Part shown: positions 47,100-64,000 of the stretch, piece by piece | Layout: every line of letters starts with the position of its first letter | Position numbering within the stretch: the stretch's first letter is position 1 | From: Dyella psychrodurans | Lineage (GTDB): Bacteria > Pseudomonadota > Gammaproteobacteria > Xanthomonadales > Rhodanobacteraceae | DNA length: 64,000 nt | Reading direction: 5' to 3' | Assembly: GCF_003363265.1 (NCBI RefSeq) | Contig: NZ_QRBF01000004.1 | Location: 62,001-126,000 of the forward strand | Made by a program: the position numbers and the translations under genes | Notes under the pieces: generated by a model | What the model was told of the DNA's origin: nothing | Database searches by the model: none | The model's input: only the letters and a program-made list of their open reading frames with translations

Positions 47100-49076
47100 T
47101 CAAGCGGCGGCCGACTGCGAAAGCTGTCGGTAGCGGGCCATGGCCCACAGCGGGAAATACGCGGTGTACCCGTGGTACTTGAGGTAATACACGCGCGGGA
47201 AGCCCGGTGCGTTATGCGAAGGGTGATACCAGAGGCCAGTCGCCTGCTGATTCGCCATCAGATAGGCGATGCCGCGCCGTACCGAATCCGAGTGCGTTTC
47301 GCCCATCGCCAGCTGCGCCAGCAAGGCCCACGCCGTGGTCTGTGGCGTACTCACGCCGTGATTGCTGCCGCGCAGTGCCGGATCGATGTAGCTGTCGTTG
47401 GTTTCGCCCCAGCCGCCGTCGGCGTGCTGGCGTGAGCGCAGCCACTCGATCGACTTGCGGATGTACGGCTGGCGCGAGTCCTCGCCGGCCAGGGCGAGGC
47501 CTGCGAGCACGCTCCACGTACCGTAGATGTAGTTGCTGCCCCAGCGCCCCCACCAGCTGCCGTCGCCGAGCTGGGTGGAGCGCAGGTAATCGATGCAACG
47601 ACGCAGGCTTTCGGCATCCTGCGGACGCGCAAGCACGCCCAGGCATGCGGCCACGCGGCCGGAAACGTCTTCGGTCGGCGGATCGAGCAGCGCACCGTGG
47701 TCGGCGAACGGAATCGCGTTGAGGTAGTAGTACGTGTTGTCCGCGTCGAAAGCGGCGAAGCCGCCGTTCTTCGACTGCAGGCCGATCATCCAGTCGGCAG
47801 CGCGATCCGTGTTGATGCGATGACGGCCCGACTCGCCGCGGCGACGATCCTGGATATGCAACAGCGCCGCCGCCACGGCGGTGTCGTCGATATCGGGGTA
47901 ATACGCATTGTTGTACTGGAATGCCCAGCCGCCCGGAACGGCATCCGGTTTGCGCGCAGCCCAGTCGCCCTTCAATTCCATTTCCTGCTTCGACCGCAAC
48001 CAGTCGACCGACTTTACGACGGCCGACTGCGTGGCATCGTCGTCGCTGGTGTTCATCAGGGTCAGCGCGCTCCACACGGTGTCCCACACCGGCGACACGC
48101 ACGGCTGGCAATACGCCGAGCCATCGTCGCGATGCACGACCAGTTTCTGGATCGAACGCAGGCAGGTCTGGCGCGCGGGGTGATCTTTCGGATAACCGAG
48201 CAGTTCCATCGCTTCGTAGCTGTTGACCATCGGCGGGAAAATCGCGCCGATGCCGTCTTCGCCGTTCATGCGCGGCAGGAACCATGCCTCTGCCTTGCGC
48301 ACCGCGCGTTGACGCACTGCCTTGGGCATGAAGCGGTCGGCGAAGCGGCCGATCTTGTCCAGCACCAGGAAGGTGCGGTTCAACAGGCCGCCGCGAACGA
48401 AGTAGTGATGCTCCTGTTCCGGCGGCGTGACAAACAATTCGCGAATATTGATCTTGCGCGGATTCTTCGCCTTCGCCTTGAGCGAACAAAGAACCGTCAG
48501 CGGCACCAGCGTGGTGCGCGCCCAGTACGAGATCTTGTCGATGTGAAACGGAAACCAGCGCGGCAGCAGCATGATTTCCACCGGCACGTAAGGCGTTGCG
48601 CGCCATGGCACCTGTTCAAACAACGCAAGCAGGATACGCGTGAACACGTTGGCTTTCGCCGCGCCGCCCCGTGCGAGGATGGCGTCGCGCGCAATGCGCA
48701 TATGTTCGGCGGCGGGATCGTCGCCCGCAGCCTTGAGCGCGTAATAGCCTTTGATGGTGCACGACAGATCGATCGCGCCACCGTAATACTGCGGCCAGCC
48801 GCCGTGCCCGTCCTTCACCTGCGTGGCGCGCAGGTAGCGTGCCATCTTTTCCTGCAGCACGTCGTCGATTTCATCCATGTAATGCATCATCAGGATGTAT
48901 TCGGCGGTGATGGTGCAGTCCGACTCCAGCTCGAAGCACCAATGGCCGTCCTTATGCTGGTGCGCAAGCAACGCTGCGCGACCGCGCTCGATGGCCTCGT
49001 CGAGGCTCGTCGTGGCGGAGGGCTGCAGCCGTTCTTCCGCGACAGCGGACTCGGCAATCGGCGTAAACGAATTCAT
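47100..49076 (-). CDS. shc: squalene-hopene cyclase
   Basis: The 658-residue enzyme cyclises squalene to hopene/hopanol at the membrane. The catalytic motif is D395-I-D397-D398 (PDIDDTAVAAALL). QW repeats such as GHWCFELE, GGWAFQYNN, NGGFAAFDADNTYY, GSWWGRWG and GGWGETNDSY are spread through both barrels, and YYLKYHGYTAYFPLWAMARY ends it. The ATG at 49076 overlaps the squalene synthase stop by four bases; 256 upstream codons in this frame are antisense noise. hpnF is a synonym. Confidence 0.96.
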   Translation of the reverse strand: MNSFTPIAESAVAEERLQPSATTSLDEAIERGRAALLAHQHKDGHWCFELESDCTITAEYILMMHYMDEIDDVLQEKMARYLRATQVKDGHGGWPQYYGGAIDLSCTIKGYYALKAAGDDPAAEHMRIARDAILARGGAAKANVFTRILLALFEQVPWRATPYVPVEIMLLPRWFPFHIDKISYWARTTLVPLTVLCSLKAKAKNPRKINIRELFVTPPEQEHHYFVRGGLLNRTFLVLDKIGRFADRFMPKAVRQRAVRKAEAWFLPRMNGEDGIGAIFPPMVNSYEAMELLGYPKDHPARQTCLRSIQKLVVHRDDGSAYCQPCVSPVWDTVWSALTLMNTSDDDATQSAVVKSVDWLRSKQEMELKGDWAARKPDAVPGGWAFQYNNAYYPDIDDTAVAAALLHIQDRRRGESGRHRINTDRAADWMIGLQSKNGGFAAFDADNTYYYLNAIPFADHGALLDPPTEDVSGRVAACLGVLARPQDAESLRRCIDYLRSTQLGDGSWWGRWGSNYIYGTWSVLAGLALAGEDSRQPYIRKSIEWLRSRQHADGGWGETNDSYIDPALRGSNHGVSTPQTTAWALLAQLAMGETHSDSVRRGIAYLMANQQATGLWYHPSHNAPGFPRVYYLKYHGYTAYFPLWAMARYRQLSQSAAA

Positions 49077-50242
49077 TGCGGGTGTACTTCGTGCGCGTCG
49101 ACCGGCTCGCGCCAGTTGACGTCGGCGATATGCGGGATGGAGCGCTTGGGCCACGTGCGCCCAGGCATCGAGGGCTCGCTCCATTCGGCGGTCAGCGGGG
49201 TCAGCGGCAAGCCGCGCGCGGTGGAGGCAAACAGCCAGCGCAGCGCGGCGTTGGACTTGCCGAACAGGCGCGTGAACAGAATCGTGCGTGCCACCGCCTT
49301 GCGCGAGATCTTGATCTGCGTGCCGGCCGAAAAATCGAGATTGTTCTGCAGATTGCGCAGCGTGAGCACGGCCATGCCGATCGCCCACAGGCAGAAGCGA
49401 CGCACGCCGGCGTGCTTGGCGGGGAACATCAGCGTGTAGTCGAGCGCATTGCGCAGATGCGCGTGCGCGATGCCGACCAGCTCGGACATGGTGGCGGCGT
49501 AATCGGCGCTCTGCTGGCCGGGCTTGAGATCGATCAGCTTCACGCCGTGGCGCGCGAACATGTCCTGCGGCAACCAGCAGGCGCCGCGCGCGCGGTCTTC
49601 CCACTGGTCCTTGAGGATGTTCGTCATCTGCAGACCCTGTCCGAACGAGACGGCAAGGCGAAGCATGGTGTTGCGATGGGGAACCAGCGCTGGCTCGAAA
49701 TCGACGAACATCTCCGTCAGCATTTCGCCGACGACGCCGGCGACGCAGTAGCAGTAGCGATCCAGATCGTGCAGGGTCTTGAGACCGTGCAATCCGGCGT
49801 TGCGCTGAAATTCGTGCATGCCGTGCGACATGATCTTCAGGCACTTCACGATGGAAGCCTGTTGCGTGCGCGAAAGGCTGCGCGTCACTTCCAGCACCGT
49901 CGGAAGACGGCGCATCAGATCGCGTTCGGCATCAAGCGTGGCGTTCGACAGCAGCGGCGCGACTTCGTCGGCGACATGCCGCGGATCGGCTTCGCCGGTC
50001 ACCGCCGCGACAAACGCATTTTCGAACCGGCGCTTCTGTTCGGCCGACAGCGCGGGCTCGTCCTCGATGGTGTCCGCGGCACGGCAAAGCAGGTAAGCGT
50101 TGGCCACCGCACAGCGCAGCTCCGGCGGGAGCTGGGGGATGGTCAGCGCAAAGGTCCTGGACACCTTCGGCAGGATCTCGTCCTGGTAGGTGATGGCCTC
50201 GTCGCTCACGAAAGGGACGGTGGCATTGTGTAATTGGGTCAT
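49073..50242 (-). CDS. squalene synthase (farnesyl-diphosphate farnesyltransferase)
   Basis: The 389-residue protein joins two FPP to squalene. It has the first Asp-rich motif LCRAADTIEDEPAL and the second TNILKDQWEDRARGACWLPQD, plus YCYCVAGVVGEMLTEMF. The sequence resembles the single-enzyme squalene synthases of eukaryotes and a few bacteria more than the HpnC/HpnD pair. No hpnC, hpnD or hpnE was found in the window. ATG 50242 has GAGG about 8 bases upstream; ATG 50248 is an alternative. It overlaps shc, so translation is coupled. Confidence 0.85.
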   Translation of the reverse strand: MTQLHNATVPFVSDEAITYQDEILPKVSRTFALTIPQLPPELRCAVANAYLLCRAADTIEDEPALSAEQKRRFENAFVAAVTGEADPRHVADEVAPLLSNATLDAERDLMRRLPTVLEVTRSLSRTQQASIVKCLKIMSHGMHEFQRNAGLHGLKTLHDLDRYCYCVAGVVGEMLTEMFVDFEPALVPHRNTMLRLAVSFGQGLQMTNILKDQWEDRARGACWLPQDMFARHGVKLIDLKPGQQSADYAATMSELVGIAHAHLRNALDYTLMFPAKHAGVRRFCLWAIGMAVLTLRNLQNNLDFSAGTQIKISRKAVARTILFTRLFGKSNAALRWLFASTARGLPLTPLTAEWSEPSMPGRTWPKRSIPHIADVNWREPVDAHEVHPQ

Positions 50243-50487
50243 TGGCATGCCTCGGCCGCTCTAATTATGCCACACCGCCCAGTGCAGGAATTTGGAATGC
50301 TGGCACTGCGGGAAGTTCCCACGTCGCAAAGCCGCCACTGTGATACGGGATGTACACCGCAGAATGACTGGACGCAAAACGGGAGGGGTGGGGCAGGTAT
50401 CGCTATTATGCTGAAGTAGCGCGCGATTTTCGTCCATAATCTCGCGATGACAGTCCCAACTTTCTTCAATGGGCGGCCCATCGCTGC

Positions 50488-57919: not shown

Positions 57920-58948
57920 ATGAATCGTGAACTTCGCGCCGATGCATCCGGCGAATTCCATGCTGCCTCGCAGGCCCAGCCCAACATCGCATTGGTCAAA
58001 TACTGGGGCAAGCGCGATGCCGCGCTGAATCTGCCGGCGGTGGGGTCTATTTCGATCACGCTGGACAGCCTCTGGACGCGTACCGACGTGCGCTTCGTGC
58101 CGGGGCAGAAGGGTGACCGGGTCAGTCTCAATGGCCGCAGCGATGAAGCCGAGTCCAGGCGCATCACGGCTTGCCTGGACCTGCTGCGCCAGCGCGCCGC
58201 GGTCGACTGGGGCGCGGACGTGGCCAGCCGCAACAACTTTCCCACCGCCGCGGGCCTGGCTTCGTCGGCCTCCGGTTTTGCCGCGCTGGTGCATGCGGGC
58301 GCGAGGGCGCTGGGCTTGCAGCTGAGCGATGCGGAGCAATCGGTACTGGCGCGACGCTGCTCCGGTTCGGCGGCGCGTTCCATTTTCGGCGGCTATGTCG
58401 AATGGGCGCACGGTCGATTGGCCGATGGCACCGACTCGGTCGCACAACCGCTGCTTGCGGCGGAGTCGTGGCCGTTGCGTGTCGCGGTGGCGATTACCTC
58501 CAAAGCCGCCAAGCAAGTCGGTTCCAGCGAAGGCATGCGCCGCACGGCGCAGACGTCGCCGTATCAGTCTGCGTGGGTCGACACGCAAGAAGCGGATCTG
58601 ACGACCGCACGCAACGCGATCCTCGCGCGCGATTTCGAAGCGCTCGCGCTGATATCCGAATACAGCTGCCTGAAGATGCATGCGCTCGCCATGGCTGCGC
58701 AGCCGGGATTGCTCTATTGGAACGGCGCCACGATGGAATGCATGCATCGCGTGCGCGCGCTGCGCCAGCAGGGACTGCCCGTGTTCTTCACCGTGGACGC
58801 TGGCCCGCAGTTGAAAGCCGTGTGCGAGCCCTCCGCGATCGAGGAAGTGAAAGCTGCCCTGCGCGACGTTCCCGGCGTGCTCGACGTGCTCGATACCGGT
58901 CTTGGCGCAGGTGCCCGGGCCATTTCGCCCGACGCCGTGGAGGCATGA
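57920..58948 (+). CDS. mvaD: diphosphomevalonate decarboxylase
   Basis: The 342-residue GHMP-family enzyme turns mevalonate 5-diphosphate into isopentenyl diphosphate. PNIALVKYWGKRDAALNLP, the SISITLDSLWTRTDV start, the P-loop-like NNFPTAAGLASSASGFAAL, RRCSGSAARSIFGGYVEW and the catalytic Asp in FFTVDAGPQLKAV are visible. ATG 57920 is used; GGAA precedes it. Its stop overlaps the start region of the next kinase gene. Confidence 0.93.
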   Translation: MNRELRADASGEFHAASQAQPNIALVKYWGKRDAALNLPAVGSISITLDSLWTRTDVRFVPGQKGDRVSLNGRSDEAESRRITACLDLLRQRAAVDWGADVASRNNFPTAAGLASSASGFAALVHAGARALGLQLSDAEQSVLARRCSGSAARSIFGGYVEWAHGRLADGTDSVAQPLLAAESWPLRVAVAITSKAAKQVGSSEGMRRTAQTSPYQSAWVDTQEADLTTARNAILARDFEALALISEYSCLKMHALAMAAQPGLLYWNGATMECMHRVRALRQQGLPVFFTVDAGPQLKAVCEPSAIEEVKAALRDVPGVLDVLDTGLGAGARAISPDAVEA

Positions 58949-60045
58949 TGGAAATCATCGCGAGCGCACCCGGCAAGCAGGTGTTGCTGGGCGATTACGC
59001 CGTACTGGAAGGCGCGCCCGCGCTGGTGCTGGCGGTGAATCGCCGCGCTCAGGCGCGTGTCGTCCTGCGCGATGATGGTGAGTGCAATGTGGTTGCGCCC
59101 GATCTCGATATCAGCGATGCGGCATGGACGATCGATCGCGATGGCGCGCTTCGATGGCAGTGCGATGAGGCTGCGGCCGCCAAGCTCGCGCTGGTCGACC
59201 ACGTGTGGGATGGTTTGCTGCGCGAGGGTCTGGCGCCGCGCGTTGAACAAGGCTTGAGCATCCATCTGGATACATCGGGCTTCTTTCATGGCGAAGGTGC
59301 CGCGCGCGTCAAGCTTGGTCTGGGTTCCAGTGCTGCGTTGACGGTTGCGCTCGCGTCCGCACTGGCGACCTGTGCAGGTCACGAAGATGCGCTGGCCGAT
59401 CGCGTGCAATGGGTGCGCCGCCTGTTCCATATGCATGGCGGCTGGCAAGGCGGCCGCGGCAGCGGTGTCGATGTTGCTGCGGGCGTGGCGGGCGGATTGA
59501 TCAGCTATCAGCTGATGGGCGAGGAGCGCACGCCGCACTTCATGCACGAGGCATGGCCCGTGCAAGGGCTGCATTGGCTATTCGTGTGGTCGGGCCAGTC
59601 CGTATCCACGGCCAATTCGCTCAAGCACCTGGCTCAATGGCGCGCAACGCACGGCGCCGACTATGCGGCGCACATGGGCAGGCTCGGGGCCATTTCCACA
59701 TCGGCCGTGCAGGCACTGCGTCAGCGCGAGACGCAATCTTTCATTGGCCTGACAAAAGACTATGCGACGGCGCTGCAGAATTTCGGCGACGCATGTGGCC
59801 TGGAAATCTATTCTCCCGCACAAAAACAGCTAGCCAGTATGGCGGCCGAGGCCAATGTCAGCTATAAGCCCTGCGGCGCTGGCGGCGACTTCGGCGTGGT
59901 TTTTGCCGAGGATTCAGAAAGGTTGGCGACATTTGAACGCGCCATTGTGCGCGCGGATATGCATGTGATCCCCCTCCCACTTGATTCCGATGGGGTCAGC
60001 TGCCATATGCGTCAGGTTGCAAGCTCGCCGCTTATGGATCTCTGA
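58948..60045 (+). CDS. phosphomevalonate kinase-like GHMP kinase
   Basis: The 365-residue kinase is of the phosphomevalonate kinase (ERG8/MvaK2) type: ASAPGKQVLLGDYAVLEGAP, the ATP loop VKLGLGSSAALTVALASA, GGRGSGVDVAAGVAGG and YKPCGAGGDFGVVF. It should phosphorylate mevalonate 5-phosphate to the diphosphate, the substrate of MvaD. ATG 58948 has GGAGG at about 6 bases; the ATG at 58945 is the alternative. It is coupled to mvaD by overlap. The following fusion gene is 99 bases further on. Confidence 0.85.
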   Translation: MEIIASAPGKQVLLGDYAVLEGAPALVLAVNRRAQARVVLRDDGECNVVAPDLDISDAAWTIDRDGALRWQCDEAAAAKLALVDHVWDGLLREGLAPRVEQGLSIHLDTSGFFHGEGAARVKLGLGSSAALTVALASALATCAGHEDALADRVQWVRRLFHMHGGWQGGRGSGVDVAAGVAGGLISYQLMGEERTPHFMHEAWPVQGLHWLFVWSGQSVSTANSLKHLAQWRATHGADYAAHMGRLGAISTSAVQALRQRETQSFIGLTKDYATALQNFGDACGLEIYSPAQKQLASMAAEANVSYKPCGAGGDFGVVFAEDSERLATFERAIVRADMHVIPLPLDSDGVSCHMRQVASSPLMDL

Positions 60046-60144: not shown

Positions 60145-62424
60145 ATGAGTGCCGAATCATCGAGTGCCGAACGTTCCCGATTCCCGGCGTTCTACAAACT
60201 CTCTGTTTCCGATCGCGTGCGCATCATCCACGAGCGTGGCTGGGTGTCGGCAGAGGATTACCAAGCGCTGGTGTCCGGCGAGCACACGCTGAAGATCCAC
60301 AAAGCCGACAAGATGATCGAGAACGTCGTCGGCGTGATGGGTCTGCCGGTGGGCCTGGGATTGAACTTCCTGGTCAACGGCCGCGACTACATCGTGCCGC
60401 TGGTGGTGGAAGAGCCTTCGATCGTGGCGGCGCTTTCGTCGGCCGCGAAAGTCGTGCGCGGCACGGGCGGCTTCACCGTGGAGAGTACCGAACCGGTGCT
60501 GATCGGCCAGGTGCAGGTGGTCGATGTGCCGCATCTTTCGCACGCCAAGGCCACGCTGCTCCAGCGCAAGGATGAAATCCTCAACCTCGCCAACAGCCTG
60601 CATCCGCAGATGGTGGCGCGCGGCGGCGGCGCGCAGGATCTCGAAGTGCACGTGCATGCGCGCGCCGAAGGCGGCGACATGCTGGTCGTGCACCTGCTGG
60701 TCGACACGCGCGACGCGATGGGCGCCAACCTCGTCAACACCATGTGCGAAGGCGTCGCCTCGCTGGTGGAAACGATGACGGGCGGCCGCGTCTTCCTGCG
60801 CATTCTTTCCAACCTCACCGATCGTTCGATGGTGCGCGCGCGCTGCGTGATTCCGATCGAACATCTCACCGGCAAAGGCTTCACGGGCGAAGAAGTGCGC
60901 GATGGCATCGTGCTCGCGAACGAGTTCGCCAGCATCGATCCGTACCGCGCCGCTACGCATAACAAAGGCATCATGAACGGTGTCGATGCCGTTGCGCTTG
61001 CGACGGGCAACGATTGGCGCGCCATCGAAGCGGCTGCGCACGCCTACGCTGCGCGCGGCGGTCGCTATACCTCGCTCACGCGCTGGTACAAAGGCGAGAA
61101 GGGCGAGCTGATCGGCGAGCTCGATATTCCGATGAAGGTCGGTATCGTCGGCGGCCCGCTGCAGTCCAACGCCACGGTTGCGCTTGATCTGCGCCTGCTC
61201 GGCGTGAAGACGGCGCGCGAGCTGGCCGAAGTGATGGGTGCGGTCGGTCTCGCGCAGAACTTCTCGGCACTGCGCGCCCTGGTGACCGAGGGCATCCAGC
61301 AAGGACACATGACGCTGCATGCACGCAGCGTTGCCGTCGCCGCAGGCGCCACGGCGGAAATCTTTGACACCGTCGTGGAGCGCCTTGTGGAAAGTGGCGA
61401 GATCAAGATCTGGAAGGCGCAGGAGATCGTCGATCAGGTCCGCAAGGAGTCGCGTGGCGCGATCGAAGCGACCGAACAGCCGGCGATCGATCATCGCGCG
61501 TGCGGCCACGGCAAGATCATCATGCTGGGCGAGCACGCGGTCGTTTACGGCAGCCATGCGATCGCCGCGCCGGTGCCGCTGGCTGTGCGCGCCGTTGCGC
61601 AGGACACCAAGTCCGGTGGCGTGGACATGTTCATCCCGCGCTGGGGCGTGGAATATCGCCTGCACCGCGATCCGGCGCACCGCGATTCGTTCCAGCGTTC
61701 GCTCGGCATCATCTTCGATGAGTTGCAGCTCACCGAGCGTTCGATGCGCATCGAGGTTTTCCCGAACGTGCCGCGTGCGATGGGCCTCGGCGGTTCGGCG
61801 GCGATGGCGGTGGCAGTGATCCGCGCGCTCGACCAGCACTACAAGCTGGGCCTGAGCGACGAAGAGATCAATGCACTCGCTTTCCGTTGCGAAGAAGTCG
61901 CGCACGGTTCCGCGTCGGGCATCGACAACACCGTGGCGACCTACGGCAAGCCGCTGCTCTACAAGCGTGCGGCCAAGCAGGGCGATGCGCCGATGGTGCG
62001 CGAGCTGCATCTGCCCAAGCGCATTCCGCTCGTGATCGGCATCAGCGGCAAGGAAAGCCTTACCGCCGTGACGGTCGGCAAGGTGCGCAGCGCATGGCAG
62101 CGCAACCCGGCGCTGTACGACGGCATCTTCCAGCAGATCGACGGTCTCACGCTGCAGGGCGTCGAAGCCATGCAGCAGTACGACCTGGAACGCCTGGGCG
62201 ACTTGATGAACATCTGCCACGGCTTGCTCAACGCGCTGCGCGTGTCGAGCTGGGAAGTGGAAGAGCTGGTGCAGATCGCGCGCGAACACGGCGCGCTCGG
62301 CGCCAAGCTCACCGGCGGTGGCGGCGGCGGTTCGATCGTCGCGCTGTGCCCGCAGAACCGTGAAAAAGTGGCGGCTGCGATGCGCGATGCGGGCTATCAG
62401 GCGATGGAGGTCGACATTGGATAA
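60145..62424 (+). CDS. fused HMG-CoA reductase (class II) - mevalonate kinase
   Basis: A single 759-residue frame joins two consecutive enzymes. Residues about 15-435 are a class II HMG-CoA reductase: Glu59 in IENVVGVMGLPVGLGLNF, DAMGANLVNTMCEG, HNKGIMNGVDAVALATGND (Lys and Asp) and QQGHMTLHARS (His), all matching the Pseudomonas mevalonii enzyme as recalled. Residues about 450-759 are a GHMP mevalonate kinase: GKIIMLGEHAVVYGS, MGLGGSAAMAVAVIR, HGSASGIDNTVATYG and AKLTGGGGGGSIVAL. The first domain makes mevalonate; the second phosphorylates it. The linker (about 435-450) is short. No stop or frameshift interrupts it. A GGAG/AAGG site precedes ATG 60145. NADH or NADPH preference cannot be told. 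Confidence 0.93.
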   Translation: MSAESSSAERSRFPAFYKLSVSDRVRIIHERGWVSAEDYQALVSGEHTLKIHKADKMIENVVGVMGLPVGLGLNFLVNGRDYIVPLVVEEPSIVAALSSAAKVVRGTGGFTVESTEPVLIGQVQVVDVPHLSHAKATLLQRKDEILNLANSLHPQMVARGGGAQDLEVHVHARAEGGDMLVVHLLVDTRDAMGANLVNTMCEGVASLVETMTGGRVFLRILSNLTDRSMVRARCVIPIEHLTGKGFTGEEVRDGIVLANEFASIDPYRAATHNKGIMNGVDAVALATGNDWRAIEAAAHAYAARGGRYTSLTRWYKGEKGELIGELDIPMKVGIVGGPLQSNATVALDLRLLGVKTARELAEVMGAVGLAQNFSALRALVTEGIQQGHMTLHARSVAVAAGATAEIFDTVVERLVESGEIKIWKAQEIVDQVRKESRGAIEATEQPAIDHRACGHGKIIMLGEHAVVYGSHAIAAPVPLAVRAVAQDTKSGGVDMFIPRWGVEYRLHRDPAHRDSFQRSLGIIFDELQLTERSMRIEVFPNVPRAMGLGGSAAMAVAVIRALDQHYKLGLSDEEINALAFRCEEVAHGSASGIDNTVATYGKPLLYKRAAKQGDAPMVRELHLPKRIPLVIGISGKESLTAVTVGKVRSAWQRNPALYDGIFQQIDGLTLQGVEAMQQYDLERLGDLMNICHGLLNALRVSSWEVEELVQIAREHGALGAKLTGGGGGGSIVALCPQNREKVAAAMRDAGYQAMEVDIG

Positions 62425-63019
62425 TCAGGAACTGGAACGTCAGGAATGGCGCGACTCGAGGGAAGTGGTTTCCTTCGACGACGAGCCCCTGATCCTGGTC
62501 GACTCGGACGACCGTGAGGTCGGCTTCCTCGACAAAGCCGCTGCGCATGTGGGCAAGGGCACCTTGCATCGTGCGTTCTCGCTGTTCGTGTTCAACACGA
62601 AGGGCGAGCTGCTGTTGCAACAGCGTGCACCGGGCAAGCGCCTCTGGCCGGGTTTCTGGTCCAACACCTGCTGCAGTCATCCGCGTCGCGGCGAGACCAT
62701 CGATTCGGCCATCCATCGCCGCCTGCGCGAGGAACTGGGGCTGGCATGCCCGCTCGAGTTCCTGTTCAAGTTCGAGTATCAGGCGCAATTCGACGCCGAA
62801 GGTGCCGAACACGAGCTTTGCTGGGTGTATGCCGGTCGCAGCAATGATGCGCCGACGGTGAACGTGAACGAGATTTCAGGTTTGCGTTACATCGCGCCCG
62901 ATGCGCTGGACGCGGAAATGGCCGCCAATCCTGGTGCTTTCACGCCCTGGTTCAAGATCGAATGGGCCCGGATCCGCCGTGACCACGCGCACGTGTTTGT
63001 GCCGCAGTCCACAGGTTAG
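62417..63019 (+). CDS. idi: isopentenyl-diphosphate delta-isomerase, type I
   Basis: The 200-residue Nudix-fold enzyme interconverts IPP and DMAPP. It shows LLLQQRAPGKRLWPGFWSNT, the CCSHPRRGET motif with the catalytic Cys, and the Nudix-like Glu helix RRLREELGL. The start is TTG 62417 with GGAGG five bases upstream, inside the end of the fusion gene (8-base overlap). No ATG near the beginning fits. It completes the mevalonate route to both isoprenoid building blocks. Confidence 0.93.
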   Translation: MDNQELERQEWRDSREVVSFDDEPLILVDSDDREVGFLDKAAAHVGKGTLHRAFSLFVFNTKGELLLQQRAPGKRLWPGFWSNTCCSHPRRGETIDSAIHRRLREELGLACPLEFLFKFEYQAQFDAEGAEHELCWVYAGRSNDAPTVNVNEISGLRYIAPDALDAEMAANPGAFTPWFKIEWARIRRDHAHVFVPQSTG

Positions 63020-63153: not shown

Positions 63154-64000
63154 TTGGGTATTCCACTTATTCAACAGACCACGATCGCACGCTACATCCT
63201 CGCTAAAAAGCTGAGTGGCCAAAAGCGTTATCCCTTGGCGATGATGTTGGAGCCCCTGTTCCAGTGCAATCTGGCGTGCGCGGGCTGCGGCAAGATCGAT
63301 CAGCCCAAGGAAATCCTGCAGAAGCGCATGAGCGTCGAGCAGGCCTTGGCGGCCGTGGACGAATGCGATGCACCGGTGGTTTCGATTCCCGGTGGCGAGC
63401 CGCTGATCCACAAGGATCTGCCGAAGATCGTCGAAGGCCTCATTGCGCGCAAGAAGTTCGTATATCTGTGCACGAACGCGATCCTGATGCCCAAGCATAT
63501 CGACGAATACAAGCCGTCGCCGTACTTCACCTGGTCCGTGCACCTCGATGGCCTGGAGAAGCAGCACGATAAATCCGTGTGCATGGACGGCGTGTTCGAG
63601 AAGGCAGTGACCGCGATCAAGCTGGCGCTGTCGAAGGGTTTTCGTGTCACGGTGAACTGCACGTTGTTCAACAGCGAGCCGCCGGAAGAAGTTGCCGATT
63701 TCTTCGATTACGCCATGGAACTGGGTGTCGAAGGCATCACGGTGTCGCCCGGCTACAGCTACCAGCACGCGCCGCGCCAGGACGTATTCCTTGGCCGCAC
63801 CGAGAGCAAGCAGCTGTTCCGTGACATCTTCAAGATCGGCAAGGAACGCAAGCGCAAGTGGGCGTTCAACCAGTCGGCGATGTTCATGGACTTCATCGCG
63901 GGCAACCAGAGCTACCAGTGCACGCCGTGGTCCAATCCCACCTACAACATCTTCGGCTGGCAGAAGCCGTGCTACTTGCTGGTCGACGAAGGCTACGCCA
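63154..64000 (+). CDS. hpnH: adenosylhopane synthase HpnH (radical SAM), 3' end outside window
   Basis: The frame starts with TTG 63154, preceded by GGAGA at about six bases, and runs to the window end (282 codons seen). It shows the radical SAM cluster CNLACAGCGKIDQPKEIL and VSIPGGEPLIHKDL, and the HpnH-type WSVHLDGLEKQHDKSVC and YSYQHAPRQDVFLGR. HpnH joins 5'-deoxyadenosyl to hopene, forming adenosylhopane, the first C35 hopanoid. The gene placed here links the mevalonate operon and the hopanoid pathway. Confidence 0.93.
   Translation, partial: MGIPLIQQTTIARYILAKKLSGQKRYPLAMMLEPLFQCNLACAGCGKIDQPKEILQKRMSVEQALAAVDECDAPVVSIPGGEPLIHKDLPKIVEGLIARKKFVYLCTNAILMPKHIDEYKPSPYFTWSVHLDGLEKQHDKSVCMDGVFEKAVTAIKLALSKGFRVTVNCTLFNSEPPEEVADFFDYAMELGVEGITVSPGYSYQHAPRQDVFLGRTESKQLFRDIFKIGKERKRKWAFNQSAMFMDFIAGNQSYQCTPWSNPTYNIFGWQKPCYLLVDEGYA

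Follow-up and report, generated by a model that had tools for sequence, protein, structure and literature searches.

A natural fusion of class II HMG-CoA reductase with mevalonate kinase in Dyella psychrodurans and other bacteria

We describe a single gene of Dyella psychrodurans that encodes a class II HMG-CoA reductase (HMGR) joined to a mevalonate kinase (MK). The gene lies in a stretch of 64,000 nucleotides (contig NZ_QRBF01000004.1, positions 62,001 to 126,000), referred to here as the window, and unprefixed coordinates are window positions. Judged by the loci compared below, HMGR-MK is a real gene fusion that is common to many species, and not a sequencing error. The explanation that best accounts for the data as a whole, and one we consider highly probable, is that its product carries out both steps within the biosynthetic mevalonate pathway.

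Results

One open frame contains both enzymes

The gene and its parts are as follows.

60145 to 62424, forward strand: HMGR-MK fusion gene, 759 amino acids, an open frame from ATG to TAA with Pfam and NCBIfam matches
60145 to 61446, forward strand: class II HMGR half, residues 1-434, from TIGR00532 and the alignment to 1qax
61456 to 61494, forward strand: linker, residues 438-450, pLDDT <50, variable in length among 74 fusions
61498 to 62421, forward strand: MK half, residues 452-759, from TIGR00549

The first-pass annotation of this DNA had read the frame as class II HMGR and MK in pathway order, with the active-site residues of each in place, and had proposed a search for both Pfam domains in one protein. 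A Pfam scan of the 759-residue protein placed PF00368 at residues 21-393 (363.5 bits, cut-off 27), PF00288 at residues 525-600 (64.6 bits, cut-off 22.3) and PF08544 at residues 674-751 (58.4 bits, cut-off 21). Two NCBIfam equivalogs also exceeded their cut-offs within the frame, namely TIGR00532 (HMG-CoA reductase) at residues 2-393 (423.7 bits, cut-off 259.95) and TIGR00549 (mevalonate kinase) at residues 455-734 (232.9 bits, cut-off 163.05). Residues 11-433 align with the HMGR from Pseudomonas mevalonii (1QAX), and the kinase half aligns from residue 452 with mevalonate kinases, the best solved one being that of Leishmania major (2HFS). Across 74 aligned fusions, E90, K274, D290 and H388, which we take from the alignment to P. 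mevalonii to be the HMGR catalytic residues, are invariant; so are K457, E463, S551, E583 and D594, presumably the active-site residues of GHMP mevalonate kinases. The annotated order and active sites are thus borne out.

Among 24 Dyella-like sequences, in which some genomes appear twice, dN/dS is 0.035 for the HMGR half and 0.051 for the MK half. A chance open frame was rejected on the grounds of the domain and equivalog matches over their cut-offs and of the relatives carrying the fusion in other genomes. Searched against its own genome (4.54 Mb, 16 contigs; 12 candidates scored), the fusion gave a single match at E≤0.001; hence neither another HMGR nor a close mevalonate kinase turned up.

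The frame is continuous across the linker

HMGR and MK genes can be near each other in bacterial mevalonate operons, and two such adjacent genes might merely appear fused through an error of sequencing or assembly. However, all 92 loci compared keep both halves in one frame through the linker, on both strands and in many assemblies; these loci are the best 80 of 220 relatives plus 12 more, with our own gene included and some genomes reached twice. Moreover, dN/dS over linker codons 435-452 is 0.168 in the same 24 sequences. These results refute an assembly error, and with it the frameshift at residues 435-450 that had been named beforehand as a refutation of the fusion; the probability we leave to an artificial join is practically nil. 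One locus, in a Nevskia soli MAG (L026:5404-7677), has a stop inside the HMGR half, and its linker is still in frame with the kinase.

The linker itself is poorly conserved among the 74 aligned fusions. The stretch between query positions 436 and 453 varies from 8 to 25 residues, with Ala, Glu, Gly and Pro the most frequent, and the structure model predicts residues 438-450 to be disordered (pLDDT <50). A disordered linker would cut easily, and either cleavage or an internal translation start could release separate enzymes from the fusion gene. Among 91 sequences, an ATG occurs in frame in the segment leading to the GHGK motif in 23, and an ATG, GTG or TTG occurs in frame within roughly the final 20 codons in 62. 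On the other hand, 68 of the 91 have no in-frame ATG in that stretch, and the window's gene has no in-frame ATG, GTG or TTG in the 30 codons before GHGK. We consider the production of separate enzymes very improbable.

Covalent coupling and channelling

The structure model of the fusion has a mean pLDDT of 81.4 and a pTM of 0.50; therefore, the domains are not placed confidently against each other. Foldseek searches matched the model to HMGRs from P. mevalonii, with a TM by target of 0.83-0.94, and to the L. major mevalonate kinase (0.80-0.81). According to the alignment, the kinase would come after the small C-terminal part of HMGR beyond H388.

It had been suggested in the first-pass annotation that the fusion could fix the enzyme ratio and channel mevalonate. 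The first suggestion stands, as a 1:1 ratio of HMGR to MK follows from their covalent linkage. The second finds no support, with a linker that is variable and predicted to be disordered and a pTM of 0.50. Direct channelling, in which a fixed arrangement of the halves passes mevalonate from one active site to the next, would be in keeping with the fact that the two steps are consecutive, with the single domain order, and with the lack of a split form in the clade's loci, which were found with fusion probes. The distances of the two halves are also correlated (r=0.908), a result that plain co-inheritance gives too. Against channelling, besides the low-confidence linker and the low pTM, is the organization of HMGR, whose unit is a dimer with the active site at the interface (available part of PMC12292504). 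Overall, direct channelling appears quite unlikely, and 1:1 covalent coupling is the safer reading.

The fusion is widespread but patchy

The question of how widespread this architecture is, also raised in the first-pass annotation, can be answered in part: the fusion is found at more than 80 public loci, and is therefore not an oddity of its own genome. Eighty of them are the best of 220 relatives from a scan of genome contigs; because the scan patterns were derived from the fusion, this list favours fusions and is no measure of frequency. In a set of 41 genomes, our own included, the fusion is present in 16/16 of the same genus (94-100% identity), 0/9 of the family's other genera and 3/16 of the rest of the order. 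Carriers, named after the titles of their records, are patchily distributed, among Dyella, Nevskia, Wenzhouxiangella, other gammaproteobacteria and some Acidobacteriota MAGs.

In a sample of the class, with the best two candidates scored per genome, 29 of 369 genomes gave a match at E≤1e-20: nine have a full fusion (our own included), one has a fusion truncated by the end of its stretch (G219), and 19 have HMGR alone. Among 398 sampled Pseudomonadota genomes (E≤1e-18, up to five candidates each), three gave a match to the kinase half: our own fusion, a second fusion (G769) and one stand-alone protein at 28%. Of 247 genomes from the phylum to which a Thermoanaerobaculales MAG belongs, 4 matched, all four with the fusion; the kinase half of one is truncated, and another was counted as having a stop. 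A Thermoanaerobaculales MAG (L144) has two HMGR-MK fusions about 9 kb apart (G830:C177:39045-41279 and 48107-50335), with a squalene synthase family gene directly before the second. Records titled Verrucomicrobia and Candidatus Eremiobacteraeota (L024, L042) hold copies 86% and 96% identical to the window's; these contigs are perhaps misbinned.

In an HMGR tree of 105 rows, six of them copies, the 86 fused sequences group together as a single clade (SH-aLRT 97), outside which fall the 19 stand-alone sequences, drawn from the class alone; the tree is a quick search with several long branches, and the program warns of false joins. A single origin of the fusion would be the simplest reading of this one clade. 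The window's copy is in a clade with those of Nevskia, Dokdonella and others, and Marinobacter groups with one copy from Wenzhouxiangella. Acidobacteriota copies fall among gammaproteobacterial ones, which suggests that the fusion has moved by lateral transfer. The HMGR-half and MK-half distances correlate with r=0.908, a value reached in 0 of 1000 permutations, as expected if the halves moved together.

The remaining mevalonate genes adjoin the fusion

The following genes of the window concern isoprenoid or hopanoid synthesis.

57920 to 58948, forward strand: diphosphomevalonate decarboxylase (MDD), TIGR01240 289 bits (cut-off 171.35), scanned from 57866, start chosen from the sequence
58945 to 60045, forward strand: divergent phosphomevalonate kinase (PMK), TIGR01220 49.9 bits, under the cut-off of 165.7, scanned only from 59071
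62417 to 63019, forward strand: type 1 isopentenyl-diphosphate isomerase (IDI), TIGR02150 148 bits (cut-off 105.8), scanned from 62318
63154 to 64000, forward strand: HpnH, cut by the window end, TIGR03470 459 bits
56080 to 57234, reverse strand: HpnI, TIGR03472 450 bits
54573 to 56000, reverse strand: HpnJ, TIGR03471 829.8 bits
53613 to 54452, reverse strand: HpnK, TIGR03473 394.8 bits
49076 to 50248, reverse strand: squalene/phytoene synthase family gene, PF00494 196.6 bits
47103 to 49844, reverse strand: squalene-hopene cyclase open frame, PF13243 and PF13249

MDD and PMK are upstream and IDI is downstream of the fusion, in the order MDD-PMK-[HMGR-MK]-IDI. The start of PMK overlaps the stop of MDD, and the start of IDI, a TTG chosen from the sequence, overlaps the stop of the fusion gene; between PMK and the fusion there is a gap of about 100 bases. 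Despite this gap, the two overlaps indicate that the genes probably form one operon, beside hopanoid genes. For PMK, the best solved match of the whole protein is 3k17 (Lin0012). The true start of the squalene-hopene cyclase is probably inside its open frame, because this overlaps the synthase frame. No tRNA was found in the 64-kb window.

A similar neighbourhood recurs across 80 loci, with IDI in 78, PMK in 75, MDD in 68, HpnH in 41, and HpnI and HpnJ in 21 each, counts that are lowered because some contigs are short. At five of the 80 (L046, L058, L067, L070, L089), PMK and the fusion gene have a match to the squalene synthase family between them.

The HMG-CoA synthase (HMGS) family PF08540 gave no match in the D. 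psychrodurans genome at E≤0.001. A relative has a divergent HMGS-like protein (L103) that matches PF01154 with 55.8 bits and whose best solved match is an HMGS, 5hwp. With this protein as probe, a copy with 91% identity was found in our own genome (G000:C16:112403-113920), and the idea of a missing HMGS was rejected. The gene, which PF08540 barely detects and which has open frames of about 505-568 codons in relatives, is on a different contig from the operon. The probe, itself from a fusion genome, matched in 18/19 fusion genomes versus 0/22 relatives without the fusion; it had no match in fusion genome G033. At nine of the 80 loci, the HMGS-like gene adjoins HpnH, downstream of the fusion gene.

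IspH and Dxr are found in few of the carriers tested

Most carriers tested seem to have exchanged the MEP pathway for the mevalonate route. IspH was detected in 1 of 19 fusion genomes versus 22 of 22 relatives without the fusion, the lone positive genome (G009) being in 250 contigs with 4% contamination; Dxr over its cut-off was found in 1 of the 19 versus 21 of the 22. IspH is also present in 7 of 50 further fusion genomes; completeness is not stated for these, so some of the absences may be gaps. Altogether, 8 of 69 fusion-genome rows have IspH, with G033 and the genome of L063 apparently one genome, as their coordinates coincide. The mevalonate route is therefore not the sole route in every carrier. 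The fusion and IspH occur together in Dyella sp. S184, in the MAGs of L025, L028, L040 and L092, and in Litchfieldella and Marinobacter (loci L021, L025, L028, L040, L044, L053, L092). It is possible that such genomes are snapshots of an ongoing pathway replacement. The available part of PMC5462960 describes an environmental acidobacterial genome with most mevalonate genes, in which no MEP genes were identified.

Besides G001, six fusion genomes, our own included, have a Dxr-like match under the cut-off; the other five are G007, G008, G010, G011 and G013 (in two pieces). In D. psychrodurans, where IspH had no match, the Dxr-like gene is full-length (G000:C1:1265376-1266551, or L142:7377-8552) and is flanked by one gene of the cytidylyltransferase family (CdsA-like) and one for an M50 peptidase (RseP-like). 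Relative to Dxr over the cut-off, PLDSEHNA is changed to PLNRRQNA and MNKGLE to MDLGLD. We take the changed residues to be metal and substrate ligands of Dxr, and their loss suggests that the protein is a relic or has been repurposed.

Cofactor and direction of the reductase

NADH-dependent HMGRs carry the motif Dx(V/L)xxxL and NADPH-dependent ones (H/Y)xSxxxR (PMC13370337, section 7), and in a class II HMGR a single Asp determines NADH use, as given in the available part of PMC12292504. This Asp would correspond to H153 here. The cofactor helix of the fusions, from H153 to R159, reads H-P-(K/Q/N/R)-x-x-x-R: H153 is kept in 73 of 74, R159 is invariant, and the third position is K, Q, N or R, not S, in 73 of 74. 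The (H/Y)xSxxxR motif is thus matched at H and R, two of its three positions, and differs at S. NADPH is therefore the likelier cofactor of the HMGR half, with the third position unlike the motif.

The best solved relative of this half is nonetheless the HMGR of P. mevalonii (52% identity), which is NADH-dependent and catabolic, and the NCBIfam family TIGR00532 bears the name 'degradative'. The fusion might, by analogy, serve mevalonate catabolism. Yet the HMGR is joined here to a kinase that consumes mevalonate, PMK, MDD and IDI adjoin the fusion gene, the carriers are mostly without IspH and Dxr, and the Asp of the P. mevalonii cofactor helix is His. A degradative role is, in our assessment, extremely improbable. 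The conserved active sites, the apparent operon and the lack of IspH in most carriers point instead to two halves that are both probably active and biosynthetic.

Discussion

As we envisage it, the N-terminal half would convert HMG-CoA to mevalonate, probably with NADPH, and the C-terminal half would use ATP to phosphorylate mevalonate. The kinase would be tethered by a flexible linker that follows HMGR's small C-terminal domain; the cell would then make both enzymes in a 1:1 ratio, and mevalonate would be set free close to its kinase, with a possible benefit of proximity. PMK, MDD and IDI, from the same apparent operon, would take the product further to IPP and DMAPP, with HMG-CoA supplied through the unlinked HMGS-like gene. 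Most carriers tested would make all their isoprenoids, hopanoids included, by this route.

The protein is very probably bifunctional. Each of its parts is ordinary and their union is unusual; it joins the known fusions of mevalonate-pathway enzymes. The HMGR of P. mevalonii (1QAX) has the same fold and the same catalytic residues, with 52% identity over the HMGR half, but it is free-standing, while the HMGR here is fused and has His for the cofactor-helix Asp. The kinases of L. major (2HFS) and Methanosarcina mazei (6MDE) share the fold of the kinase half and are its best solved matches; they too are free-standing. A further solved-structure match, 7M1Z, has a chain named acetyl-CoA C-acetyltransferase and is presumably MvaE, the dual acetyl-CoA acetyltransferase/HMGR of enterococci. 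MvaE is likewise an HMGR fused to another step of the same pathway. Its additional domain is an N-terminal thiolase, whereas here it is a C-terminal kinase, the next enzyme; the Pfam scan of the 759-residue protein found no thiolase domain.

The first-pass annotation knew of no described HMGR-MK fusion, and none is described in the titles and abstract openings listed by our literature search, outside which most subscription papers lie; this is weak evidence of absence. The main text of a preprint on a network of 6,924 bacterial HMGRs does not contain the word 'kinase' (PMC13370337). The sole fusion mentioned in the available part of PMC13001223 is IspDF, and the corresponding part of PMC5462960, on acidobacterial mevalonate genes, mentions no fusion.

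A more far-reaching reading, which we regard as rather doubtful, is that the fusion had a single origin and then, with its operon, spread sideways as a ready-made module that replaces the MEP pathway. With the kinase attached to HMGR's mobile C-terminal domain, the two activities would then be coupled, through local capture of mevalonate or through kinase feedback felt by the reductase, and this coupling would explain the takeover by the operon in these lineages.

As a bifunctional enzyme of the biosynthetic pathway, HMGR-MK would be a second natural case, after MvaE, in which HMGR is fused to a further step of its pathway, and may provide a bifunctional part for isoprenoid engineering. It would also single out a group of Gram-negative bacteria whose MEP route has apparently given way to the mevalonate route. 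The genomes that still have both routes, together with the possible Dxr-like relic of Dyella, would make this pathway replacement directly testable.
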